Assembly: GCF_003675325.1 (NCBI RefSeq)
Contig: NZ_CP033073.1
Span: 1,736,001-1,800,000 of the forward strand
Reading direction: 5' to 3'
From: Streptomyces dangxiongensis
GTDB lineage: Bacteria > Actinomycetota > Actinomycetes > Streptomycetales > Streptomycetaceae
DNA: 64,000 nt
Each line of letters opens with the position of its first letter. The first letter of the stretch is position 1. The notes under the pieces are model-generated. The model was not told the origin of the DNA, made no database searches, and saw only the letters and a program-made list of their open reading frames with translations. Positions 2,683-19,523 of this stretch are shown piece after piece. Both the position numbers and the translations under genes were made by a program.

Positions 2683-2719
2683 GTCGTGCAGTGTGGCACG
2701 GCGCTTAGCATGAAGAACT

Positions 2720-3823
2720 GTGTCGTCCTCCACCACCGCCCCCAAATCCAGCCCTGTGCCGGACGCGGGCCCCGTGTCCCTGTGCGCCCGTGAGCCGCGC
2801 GTTCCCGCCGACCGTCTGGTCGCGGAGATGGTGCCGCCCCCGCGCTTCGACTCGGTCCGCTTCGCCACGTACATCCCGGACCCCGGGCAGCCCAGCCAGA
2901 CCGAGGCCGTCCAGGTCCTGGAAGGCTTCGCGGCCGGACTCGGCGGCGCGCCCGCCAAGGGCGCCGGCCGGCGCGGCCTGTTCGGCTTCGGCCGGTCCAA
3001 GGCGCCCAAGGCCCCGGCGGGCCCGCGCGGTGTGTACCTGGACGGCGGCTACGGCGTCGGCAAGACCCATCTGCTCGCCTCCCTGTGGCACGCCGCTCCC
3101 GCCGACGCCTCCCGCAAGGCCTTCGGCACCTTCGTGGAACTGACGAACCTGGTCGGCGCCCTGGGTTTCCAGCAGACCGTGCAGACGCTGTCCGGGCACA
3201 GCCTGCTGTGCATCGACGAGTTCGAACTGGACGACCCCGGCGACACGGTCCTCGTCTCGACGCTGCTGGGCAAGCTGGTCGAGGCGGGGGTGGCGCTCGC
3301 CGCCACCTCCAACACGCTGCCCGGCAAGCTGGGCGAGGGACGGTTCGCCGCCGCCGACTTCCTGCGCGAGATCCAGGGCCTGTCGGCCCACTTCCGCGCC
3401 CTGCGCATCGACGGCGAGGACTACCGCCACCGCGGCCTGCCCGAAGCACCGGCGCCGCTGCCCGACGAGGAGGTCACGAAGACCGCCTTCGCCACCGAGG
3501 GCGCCTCGCTGGACGACTTCGCGGGCCTGCTGGAGCACCTGGCGCGAGTGCATCCGAGCCGGTACGGCGCGCTGACCGACGGGGTCCGGGCGGTGTGCCT
3601 GACCGGCGTGCGGCCCGTGCCGGACCAGTCGACGGCTCTGCGCCTGGTGGTGCTCGCCGACCGCCTCTACGACCGGGAGGTACCGGTGCTGGCCTCGGGG
3701 CTGCCGTTCGACAGGCTGTTCAGCGAGGAGATGCTGAACGGCGGCTACCGCAAGAAGTACTTCCGCGCGATATCCCGGCTCACCGCGCTGGCCCGGGACG
3801 CGAAGGGACTGGTCGGCGGCTAG
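2720..3823 (+). CDS. zapE: cell division protein ZapE / AFG1-like ATPase
   Basis: The 367-aa protein is a P-loop AAA-type ATPase of the AFG1/ZapE family. In proteobacteria ZapE acts on the FtsZ ring; its role in Streptomyces is not established. Visible motifs are the Walker A loop GGYGVGKTHL (about residues 113-122), Walker B LLCIDEFELDD (about 160-170), an AATSNTLPGKL sensor-like segment and the family C-terminal block GLPFDRLFSEEML followed by a basic tail. A linker rich in Gly/Lys/Pro (residues about 70-100) precedes the ATPase core. Translation starts at GTG 2720, and the gene is divergent from the reductase gene. Family assignment is strong. Confidence 0.9.
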   Translation: MSSSTTAPKSSPVPDAGPVSLCAREPRVPADRLVAEMVPPPRFDSVRFATYIPDPGQPSQTEAVQVLEGFAAGLGGAPAKGAGRRGLFGFGRSKAPKAPAGPRGVYLDGGYGVGKTHLLASLWHAAPADASRKAFGTFVELTNLVGALGFQQTVQTLSGHSLLCIDEFELDDPGDTVLVSTLLGKLVEAGVALAATSNTLPGKLGEGRFAAADFLREIQGLSAHFRALRIDGEDYRHRGLPEAPAPLPDEEVTKTAFATEGASLDDFAGLLEHLARVHPSRYGALTDGVRAVCLTGVRPVPDQSTALRLVVLADRLYDREVPVLASGLPFDRLFSEEMLNGGYRKKYFRAISRLTALARDAKGLVGG

Positions 3824-3932
3824 TCGGCGCACCTCCCCGGTCCTCCGGCAGCGGCCGGACGGCCGTGGGCGAGAGGCGGATTCGCGCCACGTCACCCACG
3901 GTTTTCACGCTCTCTCGGGCGTGTAACGCGCT

Positions 3933-3964
3933 GTTAACCCTGCAAAGGCCTTTGCAGGGTTAAC
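3933..3964. repeat. perfect 32-bp palindrome between zapE and a secreted-protein gene
   Basis: The left half gttaaccctgcaaagg is followed directly by its exact reverse complement, with no spacer. It lies 109 bp after the zapE stop and about 70 bp before the next start. As RNA it would fold into a stem of about 14 bp with a 4-nt loop, followed by only a weak T-rich stretch (gtgtttctt), so it could end zapE transcription. The core TGCAAAGGCCTTTGCA also looks like a dimeric repressor operator of the LacI/ROK type. The sequence alone does not decide. Confidence 0.85.
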
Positions 3965-3971
3965 GTGTTTC

Positions 3972-4007
3972 TTGACCAACCATTGACCAGTGCTTGGTCT
4001 GGACAAG
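3972..4007 (+). promoter_or_regulatory. repeat-rich promoter region with a weak DasR-like (dre) match
   Basis: TTGACCA occurs at 3972 and again at 3983, one helical turn apart. GACCA and TGGTC (3985-3999) form a short inverted repeat. Positions 3993-4008 match about 11 of 16 bases of the dre consensus I remember for DasR (ACTGGTCTAGACCACT). The region lies just upstream of a secreted-protein gene and downstream of the 32-bp palindrome. It is probably a regulated promoter; the DasR link is tentative. Confidence 0.35.
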
Positions 4008-4034
4008 AGACGTGATCGCAGCGGAGGGGGGCTC

Positions 4035-4430
4035 ATGTTCCGAGGTACGACGCCCCGGACCCTGCTCGCCCTTCTCGGCGTCGCACTGCTCGCGTTCCAG
4101 CTCTTCATCCCCGCCGGAACCTTCGCATCCGCGCACACGGGCGGTCAGGCGCTGGCCAAGACCGAGACCGGAACCCACCTCTCCGCACTACCGGCGTACG
4201 ACGGTGCGGACACGGTCCGCACCCCGGACCGCCCGGGCAGGCCCGCGAGCGTCCCGCAGGTGCGTGACCGGCATCGCGGCCCGGCCTCCGCCTCTGCGCA
4301 GGAGCGCCCCCTCATATCCGGCCGGACGGCCGGCACGGCCCCGCACGACCCCTGCGGCGCCCGGCACCGCCACGCACCCGGAGCCTCCAGAGCGCACACC
4401 CCGGCGGCCCTCCAGGTCTTCCGCTGCTGA
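4035..4430 (+). CDS. small secreted protein of unknown function
   Basis: The product is 131 aa. It starts at ATG 4035 behind a strong purine-rich ribosome site (GGAGGGGGG). The N-terminus is a clear export signal: basic FRGTTPRTL, then the hydrophobic segment LLALLGVALLAFQLFIPAG, and a likely cleavage site near TFASA. The mature part is rich in Pro, Arg and Ala, has no recognisable domain and ends in ALQVFRC; it contains two cysteines, one of them the last residue. It precedes the carbonic anhydrase gene on the same strand by 89 bp. Base composition matches its neighbours. The function cannot be inferred. Confidence 0.65.
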   Translation: MFRGTTPRTLLALLGVALLAFQLFIPAGTFASAHTGGQALAKTETGTHLSALPAYDGADTVRTPDRPGRPASVPQVRDRHRGPASASAQERPLISGRTAGTAPHDPCGARHRHAPGASRAHTPAALQVFRC

Positions 4431-4519
4431 GAGCCGGGGCCACCCGCTCCCCCTCACGACCCCCACAACCGTTGTTCGAGCCCGACGCGCCAGGCAGGCG
4501 CGCCAGGAGGACCACATAC

Positions 4520-5098
4520 ATGCAGCCCCTCATCGACAACGCCCGTACCTTCGGACAGCGCCCTGAGGAGTTCGCCAAGCTCGCCGAAGGCCAGTCCCCG
4601 CAGGTGCTCTTCATCACCTGCTCCGACTCCCGGGTCGTCCCGGCCCTGATCACGGGCGCACGCCCCGGCGAGCTGTTCGAGCTGCGCACCGCGGGCAACA
4701 TCGTTCCGCCGTACGCCTCCGCGCACCCCACCAGCGAGGCCGCCACCATCGAGTACGCCGTGGAGGTGCTCGGCGTCCGCGACATCGTGGTCTGCGGGCA
4801 CTCGCACTGCGGGGCCGTCGGCGCCCTGGTGCGCGGCGACGACCTGACCGCCGTACCGGCCGTGCGCGACTGGCTGGCGCACGCCACCCCGCGCCCGGCC
4901 GGCGCGGCCGAGGACCCGGAGGTCGCCGAGGGCGTGCAGAGCCACGTCCTGACCCAGCTACTGCGGCTGCGCTCGTACCCCTGCGTCGAGCGGGGGCTGG
5001 CGGAGGGCCGGCTCGGCCTGCACGCCTGGTACTACGAGGTGCACACCGGCGCCGTACGGACGCACCGCCCGCGGACCGACACCTTCGAGGCCCTGTGA
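4520..5098 (+). CDS. beta-class carbonic anhydrase
   Basis: The enzyme interconverts carbon dioxide and bicarbonate using zinc. Over its 192 residues it carries the beta-class signatures: Cys34, Asp36 and Arg38 in TCSDSR, and His94 and Cys97 in VCGHSHCGAV. The zinc ligands are therefore Cys34, His94 and Cys97, with the Asp-Arg dyad intact. The start at ATG 4520 has AGGAGG nine bases upstream. The stop overlaps the GTG start of the SulP transporter gene by four bases (GTGA), so the two are translationally coupled. This argues for a joint task in bicarbonate supply or pH control. No signal peptide is present, so it acts in the cytoplasm. Confidence 0.93.
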   Translation: MQPLIDNARTFGQRPEEFAKLAEGQSPQVLFITCSDSRVVPALITGARPGELFELRTAGNIVPPYASAHPTSEAATIEYAVEVLGVRDIVVCGHSHCGAVGALVRGDDLTAVPAVRDWLAHATPRPAGAAEDPEVAEGVQSHVLTQLLRLRSYPCVERGLAEGRLGLHAWYYEVHTGAVRTHRPRTDTFEAL

Positions 5099-6603
5099 GC
5101 GCGCCGATGACCGACAACCGCACCCTCCTGTCCCGCATGACCCGCCTGTCCCGGTCCCCGCACCTGCGGCAGGACTTCGCCGCCTCGCTCGTCGTCTTCC
5201 TGGTCGCGTTGCCGCTGTGCGTGGGCGTGGCCGTCGCCTCCGGTGTCCCGGCCGAACTCGGCCTGATCACCGGCATCGTGGGCGGTCTCGTCACCGGGCT
5301 GATGCGCGGCAGCAGCCTCCAGGTGTCTGGCCCGGCGGCCGGCATGACCGTGCTCGTCTTCGAGGCGGTCAAGGAGTTCGGGCTGCCGGTGCTCGGCGTG
5401 ATCGTGCTCACCGCCGGGCTGCTCCAGGTGGCCATGGGCCTGCTGCGCCTCGGCCGTTACTTCCGCGCCATCTCGGTCTCCGTCGTCGAGGGCATGCTGG
5501 CCGGGATCGGCCTGGTGATCATCGCCGGGCAGCTCTATCCGGCGCTGGCGGCGAAGGCCCCCGACTCCGGCCTGAGCAAGATCACCGGGCTGCCCGGCGC
5601 GTTCCTGGACGCCTTCGGCGACAGCGGAGCGCTGGCCTCGCTCGCGGTGTGCGCGGGCACCGTCGCGGTGCTGCTGCTGTGGAGGCACACCCCCGCGAAA
5701 CTGCGGGCGGTGCCCGGTCCGCTCGCCGCGGTCGGGCTCGCCACCCTGGCCGCGCTCGCGCTGAACCTGCCCGTGGCCACCGTGGAGGTGCGGGGTCTGC
5801 TCGGCTCGGTGCAGCCGCCGCCGCTGAGCGCCTTCGGCGAACTGGCCGGCGTCGGGCTGCTGGGCACGATCGTCGCCTTCACCCTCATCGCGTCCGCCGA
5901 GTCGCTGTTCAGCGCGGCGGCCGTGGACCGGCTGCACTCCGGGCCGCGCACCCAGTACAACCGGGAGCTCCTCGCCCAGGGCGCGGGCAACGCGGTGTGC
6001 GGCCTCCTCGGCGCGCTGCCGATGACCGCGGTGATCGTGCGCAGCGCGGCCAACGTCCAGGCCGGGGCCCGTACCAAGGCCTCCCGGGTACTGCACGGCG
6101 TCTGGCTGCTGCTGTTCGCGGCGCTGCTGCCGGGCGTGCTCGCCTACATCCCCATCCCGGCCCTCGCGGGCATCCTCGTCCACGCGGGTGCCAAGCTGAT
6201 CCCGGTCCGGGCGCTGGCCGGGCTGTGGCGCGAGCACCGCGGGGAGGCGCTGGTCCTCGCCGTCACGGCCGTCTCCATCGTGACGGTCAGCATGTTCGAG
6301 GGCGTGCTCATCGGTCTCGCCCTGGCGGTGGTGAAGACCGCCTGGGAGGCCTCGCACATCCGGCTGGAGGTCACGGACGAGGGCGCGGGCCCCGTCGAGG
6401 GGCACCTGTCGGGCAACGCGACCTTCCTGCGGCTGCCGAAGATCCTGGACACCCTGGAGTCACTCCCCCAGGACCGCCCGGTCCGGCTCGACCTGTCCGG
6501 GCTGCACCACCTGGACCACGCCTGCCACACGGCCCTGGAGAACTGGGCCGCACGGCACAGCGCGGCCGGCACGGAGCCGGTGCAGCTCGTCAGGGCGGCG
6601 TGA
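5095..6603 (+). CDS. SulP family anion transporter, likely bicarbonate or sulfate
   Basis: The 502-aa integral membrane protein has about ten to twelve hydrophobic segments, beginning LVVFLVALPLCVGVAVASG, and the SulP motif LQVSGPAAGMTVLVFEAV. A reduced STAS-like domain closes the protein (about residues 430-495, with PVRLDLSGLHHLDHACHTAL), shorter than in classical sulfate permeases. Coupling to a carbonic anhydrase by a GTGA overlap is the main pointer to bicarbonate as substrate, as in BicA-type SulP proteins of cyanobacteria. The sequence alone does not rule out sulfate. Translation starts at GTG 5095; the internal ATG four codons later is possible but would remove the coupling. Confidence 0.88.
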   Translation: MSAPMTDNRTLLSRMTRLSRSPHLRQDFAASLVVFLVALPLCVGVAVASGVPAELGLITGIVGGLVTGLMRGSSLQVSGPAAGMTVLVFEAVKEFGLPVLGVIVLTAGLLQVAMGLLRLGRYFRAISVSVVEGMLAGIGLVIIAGQLYPALAAKAPDSGLSKITGLPGAFLDAFGDSGALASLAVCAGTVAVLLLWRHTPAKLRAVPGPLAAVGLATLAALALNLPVATVEVRGLLGSVQPPPLSAFGELAGVGLLGTIVAFTLIASAESLFSAAAVDRLHSGPRTQYNRELLAQGAGNAVCGLLGALPMTAVIVRSAANVQAGARTKASRVLHGVWLLLFAALLPGVLAYIPIPALAGILVHAGAKLIPVRALAGLWREHRGEALVLAVTAVSIVTVSMFEGVLIGLALAVVKTAWEASHIRLEVTDEGAGPVEGHLSGNATFLRLPKILDTLESLPQDRPVRLDLSGLHHLDHACHTALENWAARHSAAGTEPVQLVRAA

Positions 6604-6706
6604 GGGCCCGCCCGTGAGGCCGGGGCGCCGGAACTCTCGGCATCCCGGCCTTACGGGCCTATCGTGGCAACAGCAGACAAACCCGACCTCTGGCGAGGAG
6701 GTCACC

Positions 6707-7639
6707 ATGGTCGAGGTGCTTGTGGTGGCCGTGGTGGTGGCGTGTGCCGCCGCACTGGTCTACCTGGCGATGGCAGCGCGGGTGGTCAAACAGTACGAGC
6801 GGGGTGTGCTTCTCCGGCTCGGCCGGGTCGCCAAGGAGGTACGGGCGCCGGGCCTGAACCTGATCATCCCCATCGTGGACCGGCTGCAGAAGGTCAACAT
6901 GCAGATCGTGACGATGCCGGTCCCGGCCCAGGAGGGCATCACCCGCGACAACGTCACCGTCCGGGTGGACGCGGTGGTCTACTTCCGGGTGGTCGACGCG
7001 GTGAGCGCCCTGGTGAAGGTCGAGGACTACAAGTTCGCGGTGTCCCAGATGGCGCAGACCTCTCTGCGGTCGATCATCGGCAAGAGCGAGCTGGACGACC
7101 TGCTCGCCGACCGCGAGAAGCTCAACCAGGGCCTGGAGCTGATGATCGACAGCCCGGCCGTCGGCTGGGGCGTGCAGGTCGACCGGGTCGAGATCAAGGA
7201 CGTCTCCCTGCCGGACACGATGAAGCGGTCCATGGCCCGCCAGGCGGAGGCGGACCGCGAGCGCCGGGCCCGGATCATCAACGCCGACGCCGAACTCCAG
7301 GCGTCCCGGAAGCTCGCCGAGGCCGCCCAGCAGATGGCCGAGACCCCGACCGCGCTCCAGTTGCGGCTGCTCCAGACGGTGATGGCGGTGGCGGCCGAGA
7401 AGAACTCCACGCTGGTCCTGCCCATACCGGTGGAGCTGCTGCACTTCCTGGAGCGGGCCGGACAGCCGCAGCCCCCGCAGCAGCAGGTTCCGCAGCGGAT
7501 CCCGGAGACGGCCCCGCGGCAGGTCGCGCAGCCCGTACCGGAAACCACCCCGCGGCAGGTCCCGGAGACGGCACCGCCGGCGCCCGTGTCCCGCACCGAC
7601 GGCGGGCCCCACGGCGACGGCGGACCCCACCCCGGCTAG
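6707..7639 (+). CDS. SPFH/Band 7 (stomatin/prohibitin-like) membrane protein
   Basis: The 310-aa protein has one N-terminal membrane anchor (VLVVAVVVACAAALVYLAM), then the Band 7 domain starting VKQYERGVLLRLGRVAKEVRAPG. The family core continues through VTVRVDAVVYFRVVDA, and RQAEADRERRARIINADAELQAS forms a coiled coil. The C-terminal 55 residues are Pro/Gln-rich, with three imperfect copies of a P-E-T-(A/T)-P-R-Q-V pattern. Such proteins scaffold membrane microdomains and protease complexes. The ATG at 6707 is chosen over upstream codons because GAGGAGG lies just before it and the membrane anchor starts at once. A downstream NfeD partner, common in this family, is absent. Confidence 0.9.
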   Translation: MVEVLVVAVVVACAAALVYLAMAARVVKQYERGVLLRLGRVAKEVRAPGLNLIIPIVDRLQKVNMQIVTMPVPAQEGITRDNVTVRVDAVVYFRVVDAVSALVKVEDYKFAVSQMAQTSLRSIIGKSELDDLLADREKLNQGLELMIDSPAVGWGVQVDRVEIKDVSLPDTMKRSMARQAEADRERRARIINADAELQASRKLAEAAQQMAETPTALQLRLLQTVMAVAAEKNSTLVLPIPVELLHFLERAGQPQPPQQQVPQRIPETAPRQVAQPVPETTPRQVPETAPPAPVSRTDGGPHGDGGPHPG

Positions 7640-7753
7640 CGCCCGCGCCCCGCACCCCGGAGGGCGACGGCCCGGCACCGCACCCCGCGGGGTCACGACC
7701 CGCCCCGCACCCGAAGAGCCACGACCCGCCCCGGACGGAAGGACCGAGCACCT

Positions 7754-8623
7754 GTGCCGAAGCACCCGACCAGGAAGAAGGACGAGGCCCTCCGGGACCT
7801 GCTGCGCCTCCCGCCGGGCGAGGTCGTGGATCTGGCCGGGTACGACGCCCGGGCCACCCCCGGCGCCCCGGGCGGCAAGCAGGCGGGGCTCGCGGACACC
7901 GCCCGGACCGGCCGGCGCCTGGCCCGGCTCCAGGAGCGGCTGTGGGCGGCGGGCACGGCGGGCGACCGGCGCCGGGTGCTGCTGGTGCTCCAGGGCATGG
8001 ACACCAGCGGCAAGGGCGGCACGGTCAAGCACGTCATCGGCCAGCTCAACCCGACGGGCTGTCGGATCAAGGCGTTCAAGGCACCCACCGAGGAGGAGCG
8101 GCGGCACGACTTCCTGTGGCGGGTGCGGCGCGCGCTGCCCGAGCCCGGCGAGATCGGCATCTTCGACCGCTCGCACTACGAGGACGTGCTCATCGCCCGC
8201 GTCCGGCACCTCGCCCGGCCCGCCGAGATCGGCAGCCGGTACGGCCTGATCCACGACTTCGAACGCTCCCTCGCCGAGGACGGCGTCACCCTCGTCAAGT
8301 GCTTCCTCCACGTCTCCCCCGAGGAGCAGAAGCGCCGTCTGCTGCGCCGTCTGGACCGCCCCGACAAACGCTGGAAGTTCGACCCCGCCGACATCGACGA
8401 ACGCGCCCTGTGGCCCGCCTACCAGGAGGCGTACGAGCTGGCACTGGCGCGCTGCTCGGCGCCGTACGCACCCTGGTACCTGGTCCCGGCGGACCGCAGG
8501 TGGTACCGCAACTGGGCGATCAGCCGGCTGCTCCTGGAGCATCTGCGGGAGCTGGATCCGCGGTATCCGGAGGGCGAGTTCGACGTGGCGGAGTGCCGGG
8601 AGCGGCTGCTGAAGCAGACGTGA
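7754..8623 (+). CDS. ppk2: polyphosphate kinase 2 family protein (PPK2)
   Basis: The protein is 289 aa. PPK2 enzymes transfer phosphate between polyphosphate and nucleotides in the cytoplasm. The Walker A-type loop LVLQGMDTSGKGGTVKHV (about residues 75-92) with its catalytic Asp, the Walker B-type motif GIFDRSHYEDVL, the lid region with RRLDRPDKRWKF and the motif APWYLVPADRRWYRNWAIS are all present. The single-domain length and the GMDTSGKGG form fit the class I-III single-domain family; nucleotide preference cannot be read from the sequence. Translation starts at GTG 7754. The preceding 114-bp gap has a short direct repeat (cacgacccgccccg) but no clear hairpin. Confidence 0.92.
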   Translation: MPKHPTRKKDEALRDLLRLPPGEVVDLAGYDARATPGAPGGKQAGLADTARTGRRLARLQERLWAAGTAGDRRRVLLVLQGMDTSGKGGTVKHVIGQLNPTGCRIKAFKAPTEEERRHDFLWRVRRALPEPGEIGIFDRSHYEDVLIARVRHLARPAEIGSRYGLIHDFERSLAEDGVTLVKCFLHVSPEEQKRRLLRRLDRPDKRWKFDPADIDERALWPAYQEAYELALARCSAPYAPWYLVPADRRWYRNWAISRLLLEHLRELDPRYPEGEFDVAECRERLLKQT

Positions 8624-8651
8624 GCCGGACGGGCCGGGGTACCCGGCGGGC

Positions 8652-10217
8652 ATGCACGAGCAGCGAAGGGTCACCGATTCGTACTGGCTGCGGACCGCCC
8701 CCGGGCCGGACCACCCCACCCTGACCGGTGACGGCGACGTCGACGTCGCCGTCGTCGGCGCGGGGATCGCCGGGCTCAGCACCGCCCATGAGCTGGCCCG
8801 GGCCGGGCTGCGGGTGGCCGTGCTGGAGGCCGGGCGGGCCGCGGCCGGCGTCACCGGCCGCACCACCGCCAAGCTGACCGCCCAGCACACCCTGGTCTAC
8901 GACCGGCTCCGGCGTACCCGCGGCCCCGGGGGAGCCCGGCTGTACGCCCGCTCGCAGACCGAGGCGATCGAGCACGCGGCGGCGCTGGTGGCCGAGTTGG
9001 GCATCGAGTGCGAGTGGGAGACCAGGGACGCGTACACCTACGTCCGGGACCCGTCGCGGGCGGACGAGGTGCGCGCGGAGGCGGAGGCCGCCCGGGAGGC
9101 GGGTCTGCCGGCCGCGTTCACCACGGAGACCGGGCTGCCGTTCCCGGTGGCGGGCGCGGTCCGGGTGGGCGGACAGGCACAGTTCCACCCGGTCAAGTAC
9201 CTGCGGGCGATCACCGCCGACCTCATCGCGCACGGCGGCCAGGTGTACGAGCACACACGGGTCACCGGCCTTACGGAGGGCGAGCCGTGCCGGCTGACGA
9301 CCGAGGGCGGCGCCATCGTGACCGCCCGGGACGTCGTGGTCGCCACCCACTACCCGGTGTTCGACCGGGCCCTGCTGTTCAGCCGGCTGTCCCCGCGCCG
9401 GGAACTGGTCGTCGCCGGTCCGCTGGGCCCCGGCCCCGACCCGGACGGCATGTACATCACGCCGGACGAGAACACCCGCTCGGTGCGCACGGCACCCTAC
9501 GGCCCGGACGGGCAGCGGATGCTCGTCGTCACCGGGGAGCACTTCACGCCCGGCACCGGTGATCCGGAGGCTGGTTTCGCACGGCTCGCCGCCTGGGCCG
9601 AGGAGCACTTCCCCGGGGTGAGCCTGGACCACGCCTGGGCCACGCAGGACAACGAGTCCACCGACACGGTCCCGCTGGTCGGCCCCTTCCACCCGGGCGC
9701 CCGGCACACGTACGTCGCCACCGGGTTCGGCGGCTGGGGACTGAGCGGCGGCATCATGGCCGGGCTGCTGCTGACCGCCCTGATCACCGGCCGGGACTGC
9801 GCCTGGCGGGGGCTGTACGACCCGCGCCGGCTGAAGTCGGTGGTCCGCGAGGCGCCGTCGCTGCTGAAGACACAGGCGGAGGTGGCCCGGCACTTCGTCG
9901 GCGACCGGCTGAAACCGCCGGCCTCGGTGGACGAGCTGGCCCCCGGCGACGGCGCGCTGGTCCGGTCCGGCGGCGAACGGGTCGCCGTCCACCGCGACGA
10001 CGAGGGCACCCTGCACGCCGTGTCGGCGCGCTGCACCCACATGGGCTGCCTGGTCTCCTTCAACCGTGCCGAACGCGCCTGGGAGTGCCCCTGCCACGGG
10101 TCCCGCTTCGACGTGGACGGCGCGGTGATCGAGGGACCGGCGGTCAACCCGCTGGAGCGGCGCGACCTCGACGGCTCCCCGACGGACGCGCACCGACCGG
10201 CGCCGCCGCGCGGGTGA
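8652..10217 (+). CDS. FAD-dependent oxidoreductase with C-terminal Rieske [2Fe-2S] domain
   Basis: The 521-aa protein fuses a DAO-type FAD domain to a Rieske ferredoxin domain. The FAD-binding start is VDVAVVGAGIAGLSTAHELA (residues about 30-49). The flavoprotein ends near residue 430 with YVATGFGGWGLSGGIMAGLL upstream. The Rieske cluster ligands are CTHMGC (about 464-469) and CPCHGSRF (about 484-491), giving the Cys-His/Cys-His set. The substrate is unknown; by domain order it resembles the many actinobacterial glycine-oxidase/Rieske fusions. It lies 28 bp after ppk2 on the same strand and may be cotranscribed. Confidence 0.92.
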   Translation: MHEQRRVTDSYWLRTAPGPDHPTLTGDGDVDVAVVGAGIAGLSTAHELARAGLRVAVLEAGRAAAGVTGRTTAKLTAQHTLVYDRLRRTRGPGGARLYARSQTEAIEHAAALVAELGIECEWETRDAYTYVRDPSRADEVRAEAEAAREAGLPAAFTTETGLPFPVAGAVRVGGQAQFHPVKYLRAITADLIAHGGQVYEHTRVTGLTEGEPCRLTTEGGAIVTARDVVVATHYPVFDRALLFSRLSPRRELVVAGPLGPGPDPDGMYITPDENTRSVRTAPYGPDGQRMLVVTGEHFTPGTGDPEAGFARLAAWAEEHFPGVSLDHAWATQDNESTDTVPLVGPFHPGARHTYVATGFGGWGLSGGIMAGLLLTALITGRDCAWRGLYDPRRLKSVVREAPSLLKTQAEVARHFVGDRLKPPASVDELAPGDGALVRSGGERVAVHRDDEGTLHAVSARCTHMGCLVSFNRAERAWECPCHGSRFDVDGAVIEGPAVNPLERRDLDGSPTDAHRPAPPRG

Positions 10218-10232
10218 CCGTACCGCCGCGCC

Positions 10233-11129
10233 ATGAGTCATATCACCGTACGAACGGACATCGCACCCTACGTTCGTACGGTGATCCCACACCTACGTCG
10301 TATCACCGCCGTCTGCGCCGTCCTGGCCGCGGCGCTCACCGCCTGCGGTACCACGGACGGTGAGCGCCCCGCCCCGGCCGTCTCCCCCGTCTCCGCGTCC
10401 CCCTCCTCCACCCGTCCGCCCGTGCTCGCGCCGGGCCCCGGCGGGCTGACCCCGGTCTTCGAGCACGGCCCCCGCACCCGGGACAAGACGGTGGCGTTCA
10501 CCTTCGATGCCGACATGACCGCCGACCAGGGGCCCCGCGCGGCCTCCGGCGAGCACTTCGACAACCCGGGCCTGATCAGCGCCCTGCGCGCGCTGAAGGT
10601 GCCGGCGACCGTCTTCATGACCGGCCGGTGGGCGGACCAGTACCCGGCCGAGGCCCGCAGCCTCGGCCATGACCCGCGGTTCGAGGTCGCCAACCACTCC
10701 TGGAGCCACTACGCGTTCACCGCCGACTGCTACGGCCTGCCGACCGTCGACGCCGACGGGATGCGGGCGGACGTCGAGCGGGCGTACGCCTCGCTGCGCA
10801 CGGCCGGCGTGCCGCACGCGATGCCGTACTTCCGCTTCCCCGGCGGCTGTTACGACCAGCGGGCCCTGCGGGCGCTGAGCGGGCTCGGGGTGACCGCGGT
10901 GCAGTGGGACGTGGTGAGCGGCGACGCGTTCGCGACGGACGCCGACGCGGTGACCCGGCAGGTGCTCGACGGGGTGAAGCCGGGCTCGGTGGTCGTCATG
11001 CACTGCACCCGCAGCGCCGCCCCGACCACCGAGCAGGTCGTCCGCACGGTCGTACCGGAGCTGCGCCGGCGGGGCTACCGGTTCGTGAAGGTCTCCGAGC
11101 TGATCGGCCGGAGCGGCGGACACCGCTGA
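10233..11129 (+). CDS. polysaccharide deacetylase (NodB homology) lipoprotein
   Basis: The 298-aa enzyme is a predicted carbohydrate esterase family 4 deacetylase acting on cell-wall glycans or chitin oligomers outside the membrane. NodB motifs are present: FTFDADMT (motif 1, where the usual TFDDG is altered to TFDAD), NHSWSHY (motif 2, metal-binding histidines), and YFRFPGGCYD (motif 3). The export signal ends in a lipobox LTAC, so the mature protein should be lipid-anchored at the cysteine. With ATG 10233 the signal has a long 16-residue extension; starting at GTG 10281 gives a normal lipoprotein signal (IPHLRRITAVCAVLAAALTAC). I favour the shorter form but list the longer one, because neither start has a ribosome site. 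Confidence 0.85.
   Translation: MSHITVRTDIAPYVRTVIPHLRRITAVCAVLAAALTACGTTDGERPAPAVSPVSASPSSTRPPVLAPGPGGLTPVFEHGPRTRDKTVAFTFDADMTADQGPRAASGEHFDNPGLISALRALKVPATVFMTGRWADQYPAEARSLGHDPRFEVANHSWSHYAFTADCYGLPTVDADGMRADVERAYASLRTAGVPHAMPYFRFPGGCYDQRALRALSGLGVTAVQWDVVSGDAFATDADAVTRQVLDGVKPGSVVVMHCTRSAAPTTEQVVRTVVPELRRRGYRFVKVSELIGRSGGHR
10242..10285. promoter_or_regulatory. 15-bp perfect inverted repeat at the deacetylase start
   Basis: The arm atcaccgtacgaacg (10242-10256) is repeated as its exact reverse complement at 10271-10285, with a 14-bp spacer. The repeat overlaps a GTG (10281) that is in frame with the deacetylase. It looks like a TetR-type operator, or a hairpin over the translation start. 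A further partial copy (cgtatcacc) follows at about 10300. If it is an operator, the true start of the gene is probably GTG 10281 rather than ATG 10233. Confidence 0.75.
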
Positions 11130-11147: not shown

Positions 11148-11330
11148 ATGAGCGACGAGGACCGCTGCACCATCGCCGACGCGACGCGGCCCGCGACGGC
11201 CGAAGGCCCGCCGTACGCGGAGTGTGTGCTGTGCCGCGAACCGACGGAGTACCCGGAGTCGTACAAGGGCATCACCCTGTGCCCCGTCTGCGAGTGGCAG
11301 GAGGCCCAGCGCACCGCCTGCTCCGGTTGA
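11148..11330 (+). CDS. small CxxC...CxxC (zinc-ribbon-like) protein
   Basis: The product is 60 aa. Two pairs of cysteines, CVLC and CPVC, are spaced about 20 residues apart, which fits a small zinc ribbon; a third pair is not present. The surrounding residues (EPTEYPESYKGITLC) include aromatic positions typical of such folds. The ATG at 11148 sits six bases after TACACT, so the mRNA is probably leaderless. It follows the deacetylase gene by 18 bp. The function is unknown. Confidence 0.75.
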   Translation: MSDEDRCTIADATRPATAEGPPYAECVLCREPTEYPESYKGITLCPVCEWQEAQRTACSG

Positions 11331-11464: not shown

Positions 11465-12205
11465 GTGAGCCACGTATCCGCCCCCAGTGCCGACAGCCCC
11501 TCCGACTCCCCGCGCGAGCCCCGCGACCTGGCCCCCCAGTTCGTCCTGCCGCTCGTCGTACGGATCGAACGAGACGCGCCGCCCGCCCGCACCGACGCGC
11601 TGGAGACGGCCGCCCGGGCCGTGCTCGTCCTGCTCGGCGACGACCGGGCCCGCGGCGACGGCGAGTGGGCCGAGGCCGTCCGGAACTGGGAGGACGCCCG
11701 CATCCGGAAGGTGGTCCGCCGGGCCCGCGGCGCCGAGTGGCGGCGCGCCGGGACCCTCCCCGGCATCACGGTGACCGGCAGGTCCGCCGAGGTCCGGGTC
11801 TTCCCGCCGATCCCGCTGGACGGCTGGCCCAAGGACCTGGCGAAGCTCCAGGTGTCGGGCACGGAACTGGACGACCCGGAGCCGCCCGTCGCCGCCGACC
11901 CGGCACAGCCCGTGCTGTGGCTGAACCCGGAGCTGGAGATGTCGGCCGGCAAGGCGATGGCCCAGACGGGCCACGGCGCCCAGTTGGCCTGGTGGGCGCT
12001 GTCCGACGCGGACCGCACCGCGTGGCGGGACGCCGGCTTCCCCCTGTCCGTCCGCACGGCCGCCCGCGCCGACTGGCCCCGCCTGACCACGAGCGGCCTC
12101 CCCCTCGTCCGGGACGCCGGCTTCACGGAGATCGCGCCGGGGCTGACTGTTGCGGTGGAGGGCGTCGATCGCGTCAGCTCACTGCCTCGCCGACAGCAGC
12201 CGTGA
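11465..12205 (+). CDS. peptidyl-tRNA hydrolase 2 (PTH2)-like protein
   Basis: The protein is 246 aa. The C-terminal half contains the PTH2-family helix motif MSAGKAMAQTGHGAQLAWWA (about residues 159-178), related to the GKxxAQxxHA signature of archaeal and eukaryotic peptidyl-tRNA hydrolases, followed by the strand region GFPLSVRTA and a C-terminal strand. The N-terminal half (QFVLPLVVRIERDAPPARTDALETAA) is specific to actinobacterial homologues and unassigned. GTG 11465 is chosen because a TAGGCT -10 box ends nine bases before it, the leaderless pattern; ATG 11420 is an alternative. Activity on peptidyl-tRNA is inferred from the family only. Confidence 0.8.
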   Translation: MSHVSAPSADSPSDSPREPRDLAPQFVLPLVVRIERDAPPARTDALETAARAVLVLLGDDRARGDGEWAEAVRNWEDARIRKVVRRARGAEWRRAGTLPGITVTGRSAEVRVFPPIPLDGWPKDLAKLQVSGTELDDPEPPVAADPAQPVLWLNPELEMSAGKAMAQTGHGAQLAWWALSDADRTAWRDAGFPLSVRTAARADWPRLTTSGLPLVRDAGFTEIAPGLTVAVEGVDRVSSLPRRQQP

Positions 12206-13041: not shown

Positions 13042-13362
13042 TCACACAGGGCGTTGACGCTGCGGGCGAGCTTGCGCGCCACGCAGGGCGGCGAGGGCGG
13101 GGCGCACGTCGTCGTACAGGTCGGTCTCGTCGAGGTGCTCACCGCGGCCTGCGGCCTCGCGCGCCTCATACTCGGCGGCGACGTCGATGTCCGGCCGGAG
13201 GAGCCGCAGCGCGTCAGCGTTGTCACGGCCCTCGGCAACGACGGCACCAACAAGCGCGGACAGGGTATGGCGAGGGACGCCGAGCCAGTCCGCCCACGAT
13301 GCCCAGTACCGGTCGTCACGGGTGAGCGTCTCGCCGACATCGAACACGATGGTGTCAATCAC
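13042..13362 (-). pseudogene. truncated HAD-family hydrolase remnant
   Basis: GTG 13362 begins VIDTIVFDVGETLTRDD, the first HAD motif with the nucleophile Asp (DxGET variant). It continues as a normal cap domain through LYDDVRPALAALR. After about position 13080 the expected second motif is absent; the frame runs into unrelated QARPQRQRPV and stops at 13042. In another frame the same DNA reads ARKLARSVNALCDHCEKL and ends near 12993, which looks like the tail of a different protein. The HAD gene therefore seems to have been cut and joined to foreign sequence. HAD motifs 2 to 4 are missing, so activity is not expected. Confidence 0.6.
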
Positions 13363-13544: not shown

Positions 13545-14876
13545 ATGGGGCGACTGGGGACCGGGATCGGGTGGCGGCCGGAGATCGCGGAGGCCGTGGA
13601 GGGGATGCCGGGCATCGACTGGGTGGAGGTCGTGGCGGAGAACGTCTGCCCCGGTCATCTCCCGGAGTCGCTGCTGCGGCTGCGCGAGCGCGGAGTGACG
13701 GTGATCCCGCACGGCGTCTCCCTCGGTCTCGGCGGCGCGGACCGTCCCGACGAGGGGCGGCTGGCGGCGCTCGCCGAGCGGGCGGAGGCGCTGGGGGCAC
13801 CCCTGGTCACGGAGCACATCGCCTTCGTCCGGGCGGGCGGGGCGCTCACCGCGTCCCCGCCCCTGGAGGCCGGGCACCTGCTGCCCGTGCCGCGCACCCG
13901 GGACGCCCTGGACGTGCTGTGCGAGAACGTCCGCATCGCCCAGGACGCACTGCCGGTGCCGCTGGCGCTGGAGAACATCGCCGCGCTGTTCTCCTGGCCG
14001 GGCGAGGAACTGACCGAGGGGCAGTTCCTGTCCGAGCTGGTCGAGCGAACCGGCGTGCGCCTGCTCATCGATGTGGCCAACCTGCACACCAACCGCGTCA
14101 ACCGGGGCGAGGACCCGGCCGAGGCACTGGCCGCGCTGCCGCTGGAGGCGATCGCCTACGTCCATGTCGCGGGCGGCTTCGAGCGCGACGGCGTCTGGCA
14201 CGACAGCCACGCGCACCCCGTACCGCGCCCGGTGCTCGACATCCTGACCGGCCTCGCCACCCGCGTCGCACCACCCGGGGTGCTGCTGGAACGGGACGAC
14301 GACTTCCCCGGACCGGCCGAACTGGAGCGGGAGTTGCACACCATCCGGGATGCGGTGGCGGCCGGGCGGTCCCGCTCGGCGGGCGGTACGACGCCGACGG
14401 GTACGGCGACGGGGGGAGCCGTCGGCACGGGGGCCGGGGGCGTCGGTGTCCTGGCGCCGCCCGTGGCCGGGGTCCGTGAGCGGCTCGGGGTGGCCCAGAC
14501 CGCCGTGCTGTCCTCACTGGTCGCGGGGACGCCGGTGCCGGAGGGGTTCGACCGGGCGCGGATGCGGGTGCAGGCGCGGGCCCTGGCGGCGAAGCGGGCG
14601 GACGTGGTGGCGAAGGTGGCGCCCGAGCTGCCGGTGATCCTGGGGGCGGAGTACCGGGAGGCGTTCCTGGCGTACGCACGGCAGCGGCCGATGACCGCCG
14701 GATACCGGCGCGACGCGCTGGATTTCGCGGGCCACCTGCTGAAGCTGGGCCGCCCGGGGAACGCGGGGACACGGCGCAGACTGCGGCAGTGGTGGCTGGA
14801 CCGAGCGGGCCCGGCCCCGCGGCGCCCCTCACCGACGACCAGGGCACTACGGGCACTGCTACGACGCCGAGCCTGA
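13545..14876 (+). CDS. multinuclear non-heme iron oxidase (MNIO, DUF692) fused to a HvfC/MbnC-like partner domain
   Basis: The product is 443 aa. Residues 1-275 form the DUF692 TIM-barrel-like oxidase of the MbnB/TglH family, which modifies cysteines of peptides using two or three iron ions. Candidate metal ligands are all present: His56 (HGVSLGLGG), Glu90-His91 (TEHIAF), Glu143-Asn144 (ALENI), Asp176, Asn179 and His181 ([11 protein letters not shown]), His207 (YVHVAGG), Asp220, His222 and His224 (HDSHAHPV), and Glu249 (ERDDDFP). A Gly/Thr linker (275-305) leads to residues 306-400, whose pattern ([40 protein letters not shown]) resembles the HvfC/BufC/MbnC partner that is usually a separate protein. 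The start at ATG 13545 has GAGGAGGGGG upstream. DUF4142 and TIGR04222 genes follow. No Cys-rich substrate peptide is visible nearby. Confidence 0.88.
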
Positions 14877-15220
14877 CGAGACGCCGGGCCCGACGGGAGA
14901 CCAAGCCTGACGAGCGGCTCACCGACGGCACAGCCGATACCGGGGGACCACGACGGCGCCGAAACCAGCGACAGGACCGCCCACGACCCCCCGACACCTC
15001 CCGGCCCGAGGCCACCACCGACTCCCCAGGGGCGCGGGGACCTGCGCGACCGGCCACCCCACCACGCGCACCCCAGCACCCACCCCGCCCACGACGGCGC
15101 CAGGGACCGACCACCCCGCCCCTCACCGGCGCCGCGGACGGCGTCCCTCCGCCTCGCAGTAATATGCCAAGCCCGCAGCCACCCCCCAAGCACACCACGG
15201 CGTGCGGTGCAGGAGGCAGC
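14877..15220 (+). other. 344-bp intergenic stretch with C-rich plus strand and a candidate promoter
   Basis: No convincing gene is present; the open frames through here lack ribosome sites and have poor codon bias. The plus strand is strongly enriched in C over G, mostly as CCACC and CCGAC runs. Near the 3' end TAATAT (15161-15166) is a good -10 for the DUF4142 gene, so DUF4142 probably has its own promoter rather than depending only on the MNIO gene. Confidence 0.5.
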
Positions 15221-15991
15221 ATGCGACCGCGACCCCCGATCGAGGGCCGAGGCATATTCAGCGGCACCGGACTCGTCGTCGCCGCTCTGGCGGCGACGGT
15301 CGTCGCGCTGCTCGTCCCGCTCTGGTCGTACGCCGGCCGGCAGGACCCGGCGAGCGCGAACGTGCTGAGTGCGGCGACGGTGACGACCCCGTACGGTCCG
15401 CTGTCCGCGCGGGACCGGGACTTCGTCACCAAGGTGCGGCTGGCCGGACTGTGGGAGCTGCCCGCCGGGGAGCTGGCGCAGCGCAAGGGCACGACGCCGG
15501 CGGTCCGCACGGCGGGACGGCACCTCGTCGACGGCCACACCTCGCTGGACGCGCACGTGCGGACCGTCGCCACCCAGCTCGGCGTGGCCTTGCCCAACGA
15601 ACCCAACGCCCAGCAGAAGCAGTGGCTGGCCACCCTGGACGCGGCGCGGGGCCAGGACTTCGACCGCCAGTTCGCCGGCCTTCTGCGGCTCGCGCACGGC
15701 CGGGTGTTCTCCCTGGTCGCAGAGGTGCGGGCGGGTACGCAGAACTCCCTCGTCCGTGATCTCGCCGACGACGCCAACACCACCGTGCTGGACCACATCA
15801 AGATCCTGGAGGCGACGGGGTACGTCGACTTCTCGGCGCTGGCCCGGGACCTGGCGAGCCCGGCGTCCCCGGTGCCGACGCCGCCGGAGGCCGACCCCGG
15901 TGCCGCGGTGCCGGTCACGCCGTCGCCGGGTGAGACGTACGCCCTGCCGCCGGCCACCGCCGGCCCGCCGCCGGCGGCGAGCGGTCCCTGA
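15221..15991 (+). CDS. DUF4142 domain protein, membrane-anchored/secreted
   Basis: The 256-aa protein has an N-terminal signal-anchor (LVVAALAATVVALLVPLWSY), so it is exported or anchored outside the membrane. The DUF4142 domain, a ferritin-like helical bundle, covers about residues 60-210: SARDRDFVTKVRLAGLWEL, then ELAQRKGTTPAVRTAGRHLV and HTSLDAHVRTVATQLGV. The tail is Pro/Ala-rich. The start at ATG 15221 has AGGAGG four bases upstream. It lies between the MNIO fusion and the TIGR04222 gene on the same strand. DUF4142 proteins have no settled biochemical role. Confidence 0.88.
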   Translation: MRPRPPIEGRGIFSGTGLVVAALAATVVALLVPLWSYAGRQDPASANVLSAATVTTPYGPLSARDRDFVTKVRLAGLWELPAGELAQRKGTTPAVRTAGRHLVDGHTSLDAHVRTVATQLGVALPNEPNAQQKQWLATLDAARGQDFDRQFAGLLRLAHGRVFSLVAEVRAGTQNSLVRDLADDANTTVLDHIKILEATGYVDFSALARDLASPASPVPTPPEADPGAAVPVTPSPGETYALPPATAGPPPAASGP

Positions 15992-16117
15992 CGGCGGCCG
16001 GCCCGCCCGGGAAACGGAGCGCGTCACACGAAACGGAACGTCACATACCGGCGACACTGTGTCCGGATCGTGAACAGGGCATGGCGTCCGCCCGGGGCCC
16101 TGGCATAGAAACAGCTC

Positions 16118-16897
16118 ATGTTCTGGGTCCTTCTCCTGCTCCTGGCCTGGGCTTTCGCCGGTACGGCCTGCGCCCTGCTGTGCCTGGCGGCCCTCCGCGC
16201 GGCGACCGCGGAAGCGCGTGACGCGTCGACGGACCGGGAGCGCGGTCTGTCGCTGTACGAGGCGGCCTTCCTGTCCGGCGGCCCCGCGCGGGTCGCCGAC
16301 GTCACCCTGGTGTCCATGGCCCGCCAGCGGCGGCTGCTGCTCGCGCACACCGGCTGGGCGACGGTCGTCGACCCGCGGGGCCGCGACGAGATGGAGCGGT
16401 CGGTCATAGGGGCCATAGGGCCCGAGGGCCAGTCACGGATCGCGCCGGTGCGGGCACAGGCCGCCGGCGCCGAGGCGGTGCGCCGGCTGGCCGACGGGCT
16501 GGAGCGCGCGGGGCTCGCGGTGCCGGAGGGCACGGGGGTCACCGTGGGGGCCGCCGTCCGCCGGGTGCGGGCCGCCGCGGTGGCCGTGCCGGCGCTGGGC
16601 GCGACCGCGCTGCTGCTGCCCGTCCAGACCGGGACGCCGCGCCTGCTCGTGGGCCTGTGGTTCGCCCTGCCCCTGACGCTGTCGCTGAGCTGCCTGGCCA
16701 TCGCCCGGTTCGAGGTGCATCCGTACTCGCGCTGGGCCTCCCCGGCCGGGCAGCGGCTGCTGGGCGCGCTGGCCGGCAGGCGGGACGGTGACGAGCGGTC
16801 GTTCCTCACGTCCGTCGCCGTACGCGGCATCCGCGCGATCGGCGAACCGGAGCTGCGCGCGGCCTTCACCCACCGCGACCAGCCCTGGCGGGAATGA
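16118..16897 (+). CDS. TIGR04222 domain-containing membrane protein
   Basis: The 259-aa protein has a membrane segment at the N-terminus (VLLLLLAWAFAGTACALLCLAAL as one hydrophobic block) and two more at about residues 150-190. The TIGR04222 signature is GLSLYEAAFLSGGPARVADV, followed by LVSMARQRRLLLAHTGW. Relatives in other Streptomyces often end in a Gly/Cys-rich tail; this one ends in FTHRDQPWRE with no such tail, and its only cysteines are in membrane segments. From memory, TIGR04222 genes are frequently next to DUF692 genes, as here. A functional link is likely, but its nature is unknown. Confidence 0.88.
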   Translation: MFWVLLLLLAWAFAGTACALLCLAALRAATAEARDASTDRERGLSLYEAAFLSGGPARVADVTLVSMARQRRLLLAHTGWATVVDPRGRDEMERSVIGAIGPEGQSRIAPVRAQAAGAEAVRRLADGLERAGLAVPEGTGVTVGAAVRRVRAAAVAVPALGATALLLPVQTGTPRLLVGLWFALPLTLSLSCLAIARFEVHPYSRWASPAGQRLLGALAGRRDGDERSFLTSVAVRGIRAIGEPELRAAFTHRDQPWRE

Positions 16898-17067: not shown

Positions 17068-18738
17068 ATGAAAGCTGCCGCCCTCTACTCGGCCGCCGGG
17101 TCCTTGCTGCTGACCAGCCTGGCCGCGGCCCCGGCGGGCGGCGCGCCCGGCAGCCCCGGCGCCTTCGGCGCTCCCGGCGCGGCCGAGCTGCGCGGGACCG
17201 CGGTGGCGGTGGCCCGGGCCCGGGCGGCCGGTATCGCCTTCGGCCCGTGCGCGGCGGCGGACGTGCCGCAGGCCCCGGCCGAGCTACGGTGCGGCACGGT
17301 CACCGTCCCGCTGGACTACGCCCACCCCGACGGCAGGAAGATCGAACTGACGGTCAGCCGGACCCGGGCCACCCAGAAGGACCCGCACAACAGCAAGCGG
17401 AAGGTCCCCCGGCAGGGCGCCCTCGTCTACAACCCCGGCGGTCCGGGCGCCTCCAGCATGTACTTCCCGCTGATCGGCAAGATCCCGCAGTGGAAGCGGA
17501 CCGCCGCCGCCTACGACCTGGTCGGTTACGCCCCGCGCGGGGTGGGCCGTTCGGCGCCGCTGTCCTGCGAGGACCCGAAGCACTTCTTCAAGGCGCCCAC
17601 CGCGTCACCGGCGTTCCCGTCGCAGGCGTTCAAGCGGCAGCGCGTCGCGCAGGCGAAGGCGTACGCGCGCGGCTGCGCCCAGCGGTCCGGGAGCGGGCTG
17701 CGGTTCTACACCTCCCTCGCCAACGCCCGGGACCTGGACGTCCTGCGGGCCGCGCTGGGCGAGGACCGGCTGACGTTCATGGGCGCGTCGTACGGCACCT
17801 ACTTCGGCGCGCTCTACGCGACGATGTTCCCCTCGCACGTGCGGCGCATGGTGCTGGACTCGGCGGTGAACCCGGACCCGGAGAAGGTCTGGTACCGCAA
17901 CAACCTCGACCAGTCGGCCGCCTTCGAGGAGCGCTGGGCGGACTTCCGCGAGTGGATCGCCCGGCACGACGACGTGTACGGGCTCGGTGACACGCCCGCG
18001 AAGGTGCAGCGCGCCTACGACACCGCGCGTGAGCGGCTGGCCGGGAAGGCGGCGGGCGGCAGGGTCGGCCCGGGGCAGCTACAGAACGCGTTCCTGTCGG
18101 CCGGGTACTACGACGACTTCTGGCCGAGCCGGGCCGAGGCCCTCGCGGCGTTCCTGCGCGGCGACCCGGAGCCGCTGGTGCGGCTGGCCGCGCCGAGCCC
18201 GGACACGGCCGTGGAGGCGGAGAACGGCAGAGCGGTGTACACGGCCGTCGAGTGCAACGACGCGCCGTGGCCGACGCGGTGGAAGGTCTGGGACCGGGAC
18301 AACACGCGGCTCGCCCGGGTGGCGCCCTTCGAGACCTGGGACAACGCGTGGATGAACCTGCCGTGCGCCTACTGGCCGGCGCCCCGGCAGCGTCCGCTGG
18401 ACGTGCGGACCGCTCCGGGCGAGCTGCCGCCGGTGCTGATCCTGGCGGCCCAGCGGGACGCCGCGGCGCCCTACCAGGGGGCCCTGGAGACGAACCGGCG
18501 GCTGGCTGGGTCGGTGCTGGTGACCGAGCGGGACGCGGGCACGCACGGCGTCGGGGGCGGCCCCAACCCGTGCGTCAACGCGTACCTGGACGCGTATCTG
18601 CTCCAGGGCCGCCTTCCGGCGCGGCACACGTCCTGCGCACCGCGCCCGGAACCGGAGCCGGACACCCCGGCCGCCGGCGCCCCCGCTCCCGGCTCGACCT
18701 CGCGGGACGCCGTGAAGGGCAGGGCCGCCGGGCGCTAG
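17068..18738 (+). CDS. secreted alpha/beta hydrolase, tripeptidyl aminopeptidase type
   Basis: The 556-aa exported serine peptidase is of the Streptomyces tripeptidyl aminopeptidase/SlpD-E type (family S33). The signal peptide is KAAALYSAAGSLLLTSLAAAPAGGA. The N-terminal domain has CGTVTVPLDYAHPDG, and YNPGGPGASS supplies the oxyanion region. The nucleophile is the Ser of GASYGTYFG; the acid is probably the Asp of AAQRDAAAPY and the base the His of DAGTHGVGG. Two pairs of cysteines could form disulfides, and the tail is Pro/Ala-rich. ATG 17068 has GAAGGGA upstream. It would release N-terminal tripeptides outside the cell. Confidence 0.9.
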   Translation: MKAAALYSAAGSLLLTSLAAAPAGGAPGSPGAFGAPGAAELRGTAVAVARARAAGIAFGPCAAADVPQAPAELRCGTVTVPLDYAHPDGRKIELTVSRTRATQKDPHNSKRKVPRQGALVYNPGGPGASSMYFPLIGKIPQWKRTAAAYDLVGYAPRGVGRSAPLSCEDPKHFFKAPTASPAFPSQAFKRQRVAQAKAYARGCAQRSGSGLRFYTSLANARDLDVLRAALGEDRLTFMGASYGTYFGALYATMFPSHVRRMVLDSAVNPDPEKVWYRNNLDQSAAFEERWADFREWIARHDDVYGLGDTPAKVQRAYDTARERLAGKAAGGRVGPGQLQNAFLSAGYYDDFWPSRAEALAAFLRGDPEPLVRLAAPSPDTAVEAENGRAVYTAVECNDAPWPTRWKVWDRDNTRLARVAPFETWDNAWMNLPCAYWPAPRQRPLDVRTAPGELPPVLILAAQRDAAAPYQGALETNRRLAGSVLVTERDAGTHGVGGGPNPCVNAYLDAYLLQGRLPARHTSCAPRPEPEPDTPAAGAPAPGSTSRDAVKGRAAGR

Positions 18739-18791: not shown

Positions 18792-19523
18792 TCAGGCCAG
18801 GCCGGCGACCAGGTCGGCGACGTCCTTGCGGCGGCCCGTGTAGAACGGGACCTCCTCGCGGACGTGCATCCGGGCCTCGGAGGCGCGCAGGTGACGCATG
18901 AGGTCGACGATGCGGTACAGCTCGTCGGCCTCGAAGGCCAGGATCCACTCGTAGTCGCCGAGGGAGAACGAGGCGACGGTGTTGGCGCGCACGTCGGGGT
19001 AGCCGCGGGCCATCTTGCCGTGGTCGGCGAGCATGCGGCGGCGGTCCTCGTCGGGCAGCAGGTACCAGTCGTAGGAGCGCACGAACGGGTAGACGCTGAC
19101 GTAGTCGCGGGGCGTCTCGTCGGCGAGGAACGCCGGGATGTGCGAGCGGTTGAACTCGGCGGGGCGGTGCAGCGCCATGTTCGACCACACCGGCTCCAGC
19201 GCGCGGCCCAGCCGGGTGCGGCGGAAGAGGTTGTACGCCTCCTGGAGCTGTTCACTGGTCTCGGCGTGCCACCAGACCATGACGTCGGCGTCGGCGCGCA
19301 GGCCGGAGACGTCGTAGGTGCCGCGGACCGTGACGTCCTTCGCGGCGAGCTGGTCGAACAGCTCCTGGACCTCGTCGGCGTATCCCGTGCGGTCCTCCGG
19401 CAGCACGTCCTTCAGCCGGAACACCGACCACAGGGTGTAGCGGATGACCTCGTTCAGGTCCTTGGCCAGCTTGCCCTTGTTCGGGACCCTGCCGGACTCG
19501 ATGATGGGGGCGTCGTCACTCAT
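18792..19523 (-). CDS. hemQ: coproheme decarboxylase HemQ (chlorite dismutase family)
   Basis: The 243-aa enzyme performs the last step of the coproporphyrin-dependent haem route of Gram-positive bacteria, decarboxylating coproheme to haem b. The chlorite-dismutase-family blocks are seen: [53 protein letters not shown] with the conserved tyrosines, and [23 protein letters not shown] 19523 is five bases after the hemG stop, so the two are an operon. The reading end at 18792 leaves a 53-bp convergent gap to the peptidase gene. Confidence 0.95.

Follow-up and report, generated by a model that had tools for sequence, protein, structure and literature searches.

The window analysed here, a stretch of 64,000 nucleotides from Streptomyces dangxiongensis (contig NZ_CP033073.1, positions 1,736,001 to 1,800,000), encodes a single-chain fusion of an MNIO oxidase with a partner-type domain, followed on the same strand by a DUF4142 protein and a TIGR04222 membrane protein. 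These three genes were real and correctly placed in a preliminary description of the locus, which reported no visible substrate peptide. The preferred explanation, to which we assign a probability of roughly 0.55, is that the enzyme is an ancestral tail-modifying MNIO-partner fusion that has been kept for another target, probably encoded in trans. The missing substrate is most simply explained by deletion of the gene for a Cys-tailed TIGR04222 protein, here called TIGR-A, judging from the comparison with related loci. The TIGR04222 protein that is present in the window belongs to a second paralogue, TIGR-B.

Coupling of the MNIO to a Cys-tailed TIGR04222 paralogue

We read 100 MNIO loci and the window with a simple, purpose-written gene caller. 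Two unrelated MNIOs and three unusable loci (one of them with TIGR-A) were set aside, leaving 96 evaluable loci out of 101. Of the 101 loci, 55 contained TIGR-A; in five of these it was recovered by tblastn after the gene caller had missed it. Among the evaluable loci, TIGR-A was present in 54 and absent from 42, including the window. The TIGR-A proteins have a tail rich in Ser, Gly and Cys, and 46 of the 50 called proteins contain at least five Cys within their final 100 residues. TIGR-B proteins had fewer than five Cys in the same region in 65 of 66 cases; the remaining one (L122) lies on the border of TIGR-A and TIGR-B. Both occur side by side as separate paralogues in 29 of the 54 TIGR-A loci, and the reading of TIGR-B as a shortened TIGR-A was rejected on this ground. 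The window protein lacks a C-terminal, Cys-rich low-complexity tail, as was already noted in the preliminary description, because it is of the B type. TIGR-B was found in 37 of the 42 loci without TIGR-A.

The distance between the genes suggested that only TIGR-A is coupled to the enzyme. The gap from the MNIO or partner gene to the TIGR-A gene that follows did not exceed 20 bp in 45 of the 48 loci measured (median 1.5 bp), with an overlap of four bases in 20 of them. In the loci without TIGR-A, the next gene was at least 87 bp away in all 40 loci measured (DUF4142 in 24, TIGR-B in 14 and a TAP-like hydrolase in 2), and thus in 38 of 38 where it encoded DUF4142 or TIGR-B. Among the 80 nearest named relatives, all of them Streptomyces, the gene after the MNIO encoded DUF4142 in 48 loci, TIGR-B in 17 and TIGR-A in 2, the remaining 13 having another gene or the end of the contig. 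The grouping with DUF4142 and TIGR04222 that had been described for the window recurs in other genomes, but it does not look like one tightly coupled operon. We conclude that DUF4142 and TIGR-B are recurrent neighbours of the MNIO and not its coupled substrate. Outside the genus, a TIGR04222 gene was located directly before the MNIO in 15 of 20 loci, with at least three Cys in the last 100 residues of the protein in 14 of the 15.

Loss of TIGR-A and retention of the enzyme

A rapidly built phylogeny of 100 MNIO domains, in which many forks remained open, placed 40 of the 42 rows without TIGR-A in one clade of 44 rows, with a support of 98 in the Shimodaira-Hasegawa-like approximate likelihood ratio test (SH-aLRT). 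This clade includes the window, two rows with TIGR-A (L099 and L138) and two undecided rows. The other two rows without TIGR-A (L076 and L084) are located elsewhere in the tree, indicating that TIGR-A was lost more than once. The TIGR-A label changed six times on the tree, as compared to a mean of 32.7 changes with shuffled labels, the two unrelated MNIOs being counted as lacking TIGR-A.

No remnant of TIGR-A was detected in the window by tblastn (E 1e-3) with the TIGR-A proteins of eight loci, the best three matches all being located within TIGR-B. The genome of 8.16 Mb contains a single MNIO match and, with 71 of 71 candidates scored, a single TIGR04222 match. Searching this genome with a profile built from 32 TIGR-A tails gave no match, but in all five TIGR-A genomes used for comparison (G065, G129, G038, G096 and G064) the profile likewise failed to recover the known tails, so that the negative result carries no weight; its three matches elsewhere (G096, G124 and G129) were weak (E 0.04-0.34). 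DNA patterns for tails of Cys, Ser and Gly had either too little sensitivity, detecting at most 17 of 55 loci, or too little specificity, with 355 to 10,710 chance matches expected per genome.

We estimated the ratio of nonsynonymous to synonymous substitution rates (dN/dS) for fused MNIOs with the Nei-Gojobori method, using the HemQ heme synthase gene as a yardstick for the strength of selection. The pairs are not independent, and the set without TIGR-A takes in the two undecided loci. In this set, the median pairwise dN/dS was 0.145 for the MNIO domain (900 pairs) and 0.166 for HemQ. The corresponding medians in the TIGR-A loci were 0.215 and 0.132, and TIGR-A itself evolves rapidly (0.78). 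These values indicate that the MNIO in the clade of the window is under strong purifying selection. Since the gene is kept under such selection without TIGR-A, it should therefore have another target.

The fused enzyme and its partner-type domain

The preliminary description credited the MNIO with all metal-ligand positions of the family, and the alignment agreed. Ten positions of the ligand type (H56, H91, E143, D176, N179, H181, H207, D220, H222 and E249) are invariant in 96 of 96 sequences, the window counted, and were complete in both the 42 MNIOs without TIGR-A and the 54 with it. We take these to be the metal ligands, as known from work on TglH and MbnB. Seven positions separate the MNIOs with and without TIGR-A, of which 142 and 221 touch the ligand-type residues 143, 220 and 222. 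The domain could be aligned with the TglH structures 8hci and 8hi7, with 3bww and with MbnB, although the alignments to 8hci, 7tcr and 7dz9 were partial, a limit that did not apply to 3bww. The predicted activity of the fused MNIO would be an O2-dependent modification with a multi-iron cofactor.

Several observations support the reading of the C-terminal domain as a fused MNIO partner, which agrees with the resemblance to HvfC, BufC and MbnC seen earlier. A separate gene directly after the MNIO encodes a homologue of it in nine Streptomyces loci and in 13 of the 20 outside the genus. The domain also shows a faint DUF2063 signature, and its best structural match in a fold comparison was MbnC (in the MbnBC structure, PDB 7dz9), a structural relation to NGO1945, TglI or MbnC being tentative. 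The domain is shorter than MbnC (138 as compared to 180 residues) and distant in sequence. A PDB sequence search with the partner profile returned no relevant match, and the partner domain of the window searched alone had no match in Pfam. PF26136, the SCO6045-like C-terminal domain, is borne by the 120 relatives of the domain in the matches listed and is also present on a precomputed entry (P0121) with the same sequence as the window protein. The entries found for PF26136 provide a family name and attach no partner function to it. The linker between the domains (columns 273-311) had a median pairwise dN/dS of 1.35 in the loci without TIGR-A and 1.26 in those with it. In one locus outside the genus (L209, family code f18), an MNIO and a partner-type domain are also fused, possibly by an independent event.

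Relation to described systems

It is already known that TIGR04222 proteins are associated with MNIOs, and PF26136 has been catalogued. In the accessible text of PMC12452194 (Antoine 2025), subsets of Cys-tailed TIGR04222 proteins are proposed as MNIO substrates, some TIGR04222 clusters have no MNIO, many TIGR04222/MNIO clusters seem to have no partner genes, and the order adjamnio-II (peptidyl-tRNA hydrolase, PTH), MNIO, TIGR04222 is listed. The same set of genes is present in the window, and the suggestion of an undescribed system was thus too strong. The window shares the enzyme family, the membrane-protein family, the PTH-type neighbour and the mostly actinomycete distribution with these clusters, but it lacks the Cys-tailed protein, and the MNIO-partner fusion is not described in that text. 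The PTH family also differs, being PF01195 in PMC12452194 and a PF01981 match in the window. Positive-inside counts tentatively placed the soluble domain and the tail in the cytoplasm for 32 of 34 three-helix TIGR-A proteins, whereas the tail is periplasmic according to the text of PMC12452194. The soluble domain was on the same side in 60 of 62 three-helix TIGR-B proteins. With four hydrophobic segments, as in another 14 of the 50 TIGR-A proteins, the tail would end up on the opposite side; two have two segments.

The tight coupling of MNIO and TIGR-A, the clade-wide loss with the enzyme kept and the association with DUF4142 were not found in the parts of PMC12452194 that we could access; DUF4142 has no occurrence in its main text, as far as accessible. 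Nor did the literature retrieved for DUF692 with DUF4142, or for DUF4142 with copper, contain anything on an MNIO/DUF4142 pairing in its titles and abstract openings. The present analysis newly accounts for the lack of a visible substrate. The system in the window represents a variant of a type already published, and its interest lies in an enzyme retained without its coupled substrate. A clade without the Cys-tailed protein in which the enzyme is still under selection amounts to a natural deletion experiment. For Streptomyces, the fusion would explain the TIGR04222/MNIO clusters without visible partner genes in the available text of PMC12452194.

Bufferin systems (BufB-BufC with DUF2282) similarly combine an MNIO with a DUF2063-like partner, but the window has a TIGR04222 protein in place of the Sec-peptide precursor. 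BufB was the top-scoring NCBIfam model for the window MNIO, with 176 bits as compared to the equivalog cut-off of 310. The DUF2282 profile had no match in the window genome and was positive in the control, Caulobacter vibrioides; other bufferin precursor families were not searched. A bufferin system was rejected based on the BufB score and the lack of a DUF2282 match. The methanobactin enzyme MbnBC likewise consists of an MNIO and a helical partner, which is a separate protein there and fused in the window; no MbnA-like precursor was seen, although no specific search for one was made. Some actinomycetes (L003, L004, L005, L163, L164 and L165) have a different MNIO cluster with a protein of 184-223 amino acids containing 8-10 Cys, a DUF2063-type partner and a protein that by eye looks ferritin-like; the cluster resembles the adjamnio-I of PMC12452194, as far as described in the accessible text.

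Candidate targets of the retained enzyme

The partner domain would hold the substrate beside the iron centre, and the ancestral reaction would be an O2-dependent oxidation of the cysteines in the TIGR-A tail. The products would probably be metal ligands of the thiooxazole or oxazolone/thioamide type, as in bufferins and methanobactin. In the clade of the window, where TIGR-A is missing from nearly all rows, the enzyme would have been kept for a second target, most likely a Cys-containing protein encoded elsewhere in the genome. An MNIO was present in 141 of 150 genus genomes, which makes this a genus-wide system in which to seek the second target, probably including S. coelicolor, where the name of the PF26136 domain suggests that SCO6045 is the fused MNIO. 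According to PMC4991794, H2O2 raised the expression of 28 genes in the wild type, SCO6045 among them (3.0-fold). This set includes 12 named genes for the synthesis of cysteine from sulfate, the transport of sulfonates or the uptake of methionine, and no gene was up-regulated by H2O2 in an hbpS-senS-senR mutant. A more specific proposal, which we offer tentatively and consider possible rather than probable, is that the near-universal single-chain MNIO of Streptomyces first served a coupled Cys-tailed membrane protein, dropped it in a large clade and today acts on some ordinary protein of the cell whose gene lies elsewhere, within the H2O2/cysteine response. If so, this would be an MNIO that modifies proteins generally and does not belong to a biosynthetic gene cluster.

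The target may instead be encoded close by. TIGR-B would be the present substrate if the MNIO oxidised Cys 18, 22 and 192 in its predicted membrane helices, forming a site for metal binding or redox chemistry within the membrane. These residues are conserved in 119, 123 and 123 of 134 TIGR-B sequences, TIGR-B accompanies most loci without TIGR-A, and Val is found at the position of Cys 22 in two genomes without MNIO (L296 and L297), which have similar sequences and matching loci and perhaps represent one event. However, TIGR-B is kept in these two genomes, and some loci with MNIO also lack one of the three Cys. Furthermore, five of the 42 loci without TIGR-A have the MNIO but no TIGR-B, and their genomes (G013, G023, G045, G107 and G110) gave no TIGR04222 match among the 17 candidates scored in each. 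TIGR-B is also uncoupled from the MNIO in the loci without TIGR-A (at least 87 bp in 14 of 14 gaps), and Cys inside helices are awkward targets for a soluble enzyme. We consider this explanation quite improbable, and the same holds for a small Cys-rich protein as the target. The preliminary description was nearly right that there is no short Cys-rich open reading frame (ORF), but a conserved one lies upstream of the MNIO. Its product has six Cys with a CxxC...CxxC pattern, ends in TACSG and has no Pfam or NCBIfam match. Small ORFs with Cys were clustered for the 101 loci, and among the 25 largest clusters printed this was, by eye, the only one that did not resemble a shadow ORF. It occurs in 104 of the 150 genus genomes and in none of 268 other genomes of the class, and it is absent from all ten genus genomes without MNIO, five of which keep the PTH2 neighbour. 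On the other hand, the protein looks like a zinc ribbon, its gene is kilobases from the MNIO and often on the opposite strand, and no match was found in 37 of the 141 genomes with MNIO. The genomes without MNIO may also just be lineages without the six-Cys gene, since the counts were made without a species tree.

It is unlikely, too, that the enzyme has ceased to act on ribosomal peptides or Cys and modifies a small molecule or, in a protein such as DUF4142, a residue other than Cys. Asp, Asn, Phe and homocitrulline are known targets of MNIOs (PMC12452194 and PMC13174530), and DUF4142, which contains no Cys in the window, adjoins the MNIO in 26 of the 42 loci without TIGR-A and in 18 of the 54 with it. 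However, DUF4142 is absent from the fetched stretch in 15 of the 42 loci, and the partner-type domain has been retained. The median dN/dS of DUF4142 is also higher in the loci without TIGR-A than in those with it (0.47 as compared to 0.24, for the first DUF4142 of each locus, with upstream and downstream copies mixed). Loss of the coupled TIGR-A gene could finally have left the MNIO as a decaying relic. This is hardly credible given a dN/dS as low as that of HemQ, the complete set of ligand-type residues and the persistence of the MNIO across the clade of 44 rows, and it was rejected at the sequence level.

Genomic surroundings and minor observations

The features of the locus are summarized in Table 1.

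Table 1. Features of the MNIO locus and its surroundings, in window coordinates
Feature	Position	Strand	Remarks
Six-Cys ORF, upstream	11148-11330	+	60 aa; 2.2 kb 5' of the MNIO
PTH2-like protein, upstream	11465-12205	+	PF01981, 26.5 bits (cut-off 23)
MNIO-partner fusion	13545-14876	+	443 aa
MNIO (DUF692/PF05114) catalytic domain	13545-14360	+	residues 1-272; PF05114, 258 bits (cut-off 25)
Variable linker	14361-14459	+	about residues 273-305; low conservation, high dN/dS
C-terminal partner-type domain (PF26136, SCO6045-like C-terminal)	14460-14876	+	residues 306-443 and stop
Intergenic gap	14877-15220		place of TIGR04222-A in related genomes; no detectable remnant
DUF4142 protein	15221-15991	+	256 aa; PF13628, 83 bits (cut-off 27)
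TIGR04222-B membrane protein	16118-16897	+	259 aa; TIGR04222, 142 bits (cut-off 43)
TAP-like alpha/beta hydrolase, syntenic downstream neighbour	17068-18738	+	PF08386, 91.5 bits
HemQ heme synthase, syntenic neighbour	18792-19523	-	NF042928, 369 bits

The DUF4142 protein has an N-terminal hydrophobic segment and presumably a ferritin-like fold. The TAP-like hydrolase gene was found in 40 of the 42 loci without TIGR-A, and a protoporphyrinogen-oxidase (HemY) gene is also among the downstream neighbours in the window. Two short minus-strand ORFs separate the PTH2-like gene from the MNIO. A short ORF directly upstream of the MNIO (13042-13362, minus strand) resembles a HAD hydrolase, with a weak match to PF00702, and is perhaps a gene remnant.

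TIGR04222 matches were found in 131 of the 150 genus genomes, based on 17 candidates scored per genome, and three genomes (G047, G102 and G105) had such a match but no MNIO. In two of these, G047 and G105 (L296 and L297), TIGR-B, TAP, HemQ and HemY are kept. The three membrane-helix Cys of TIGR-B are conserved whether or not the locus has TIGR-A and possibly form an intramembrane metal or redox site. A fold search with the AlphaFold2 model of TIGR-B (predicted local distance difference test score 91.8) identified only generic helical bundles.

Two genus genomes contain divergent MNIOs (L134, 5670-6533, and L153, 5757-6626) with no partner gene and no called TIGR04222 neighbour. In L134, a weak tblastn match of the TIGR-A type is located right beside the divergent MNIO.

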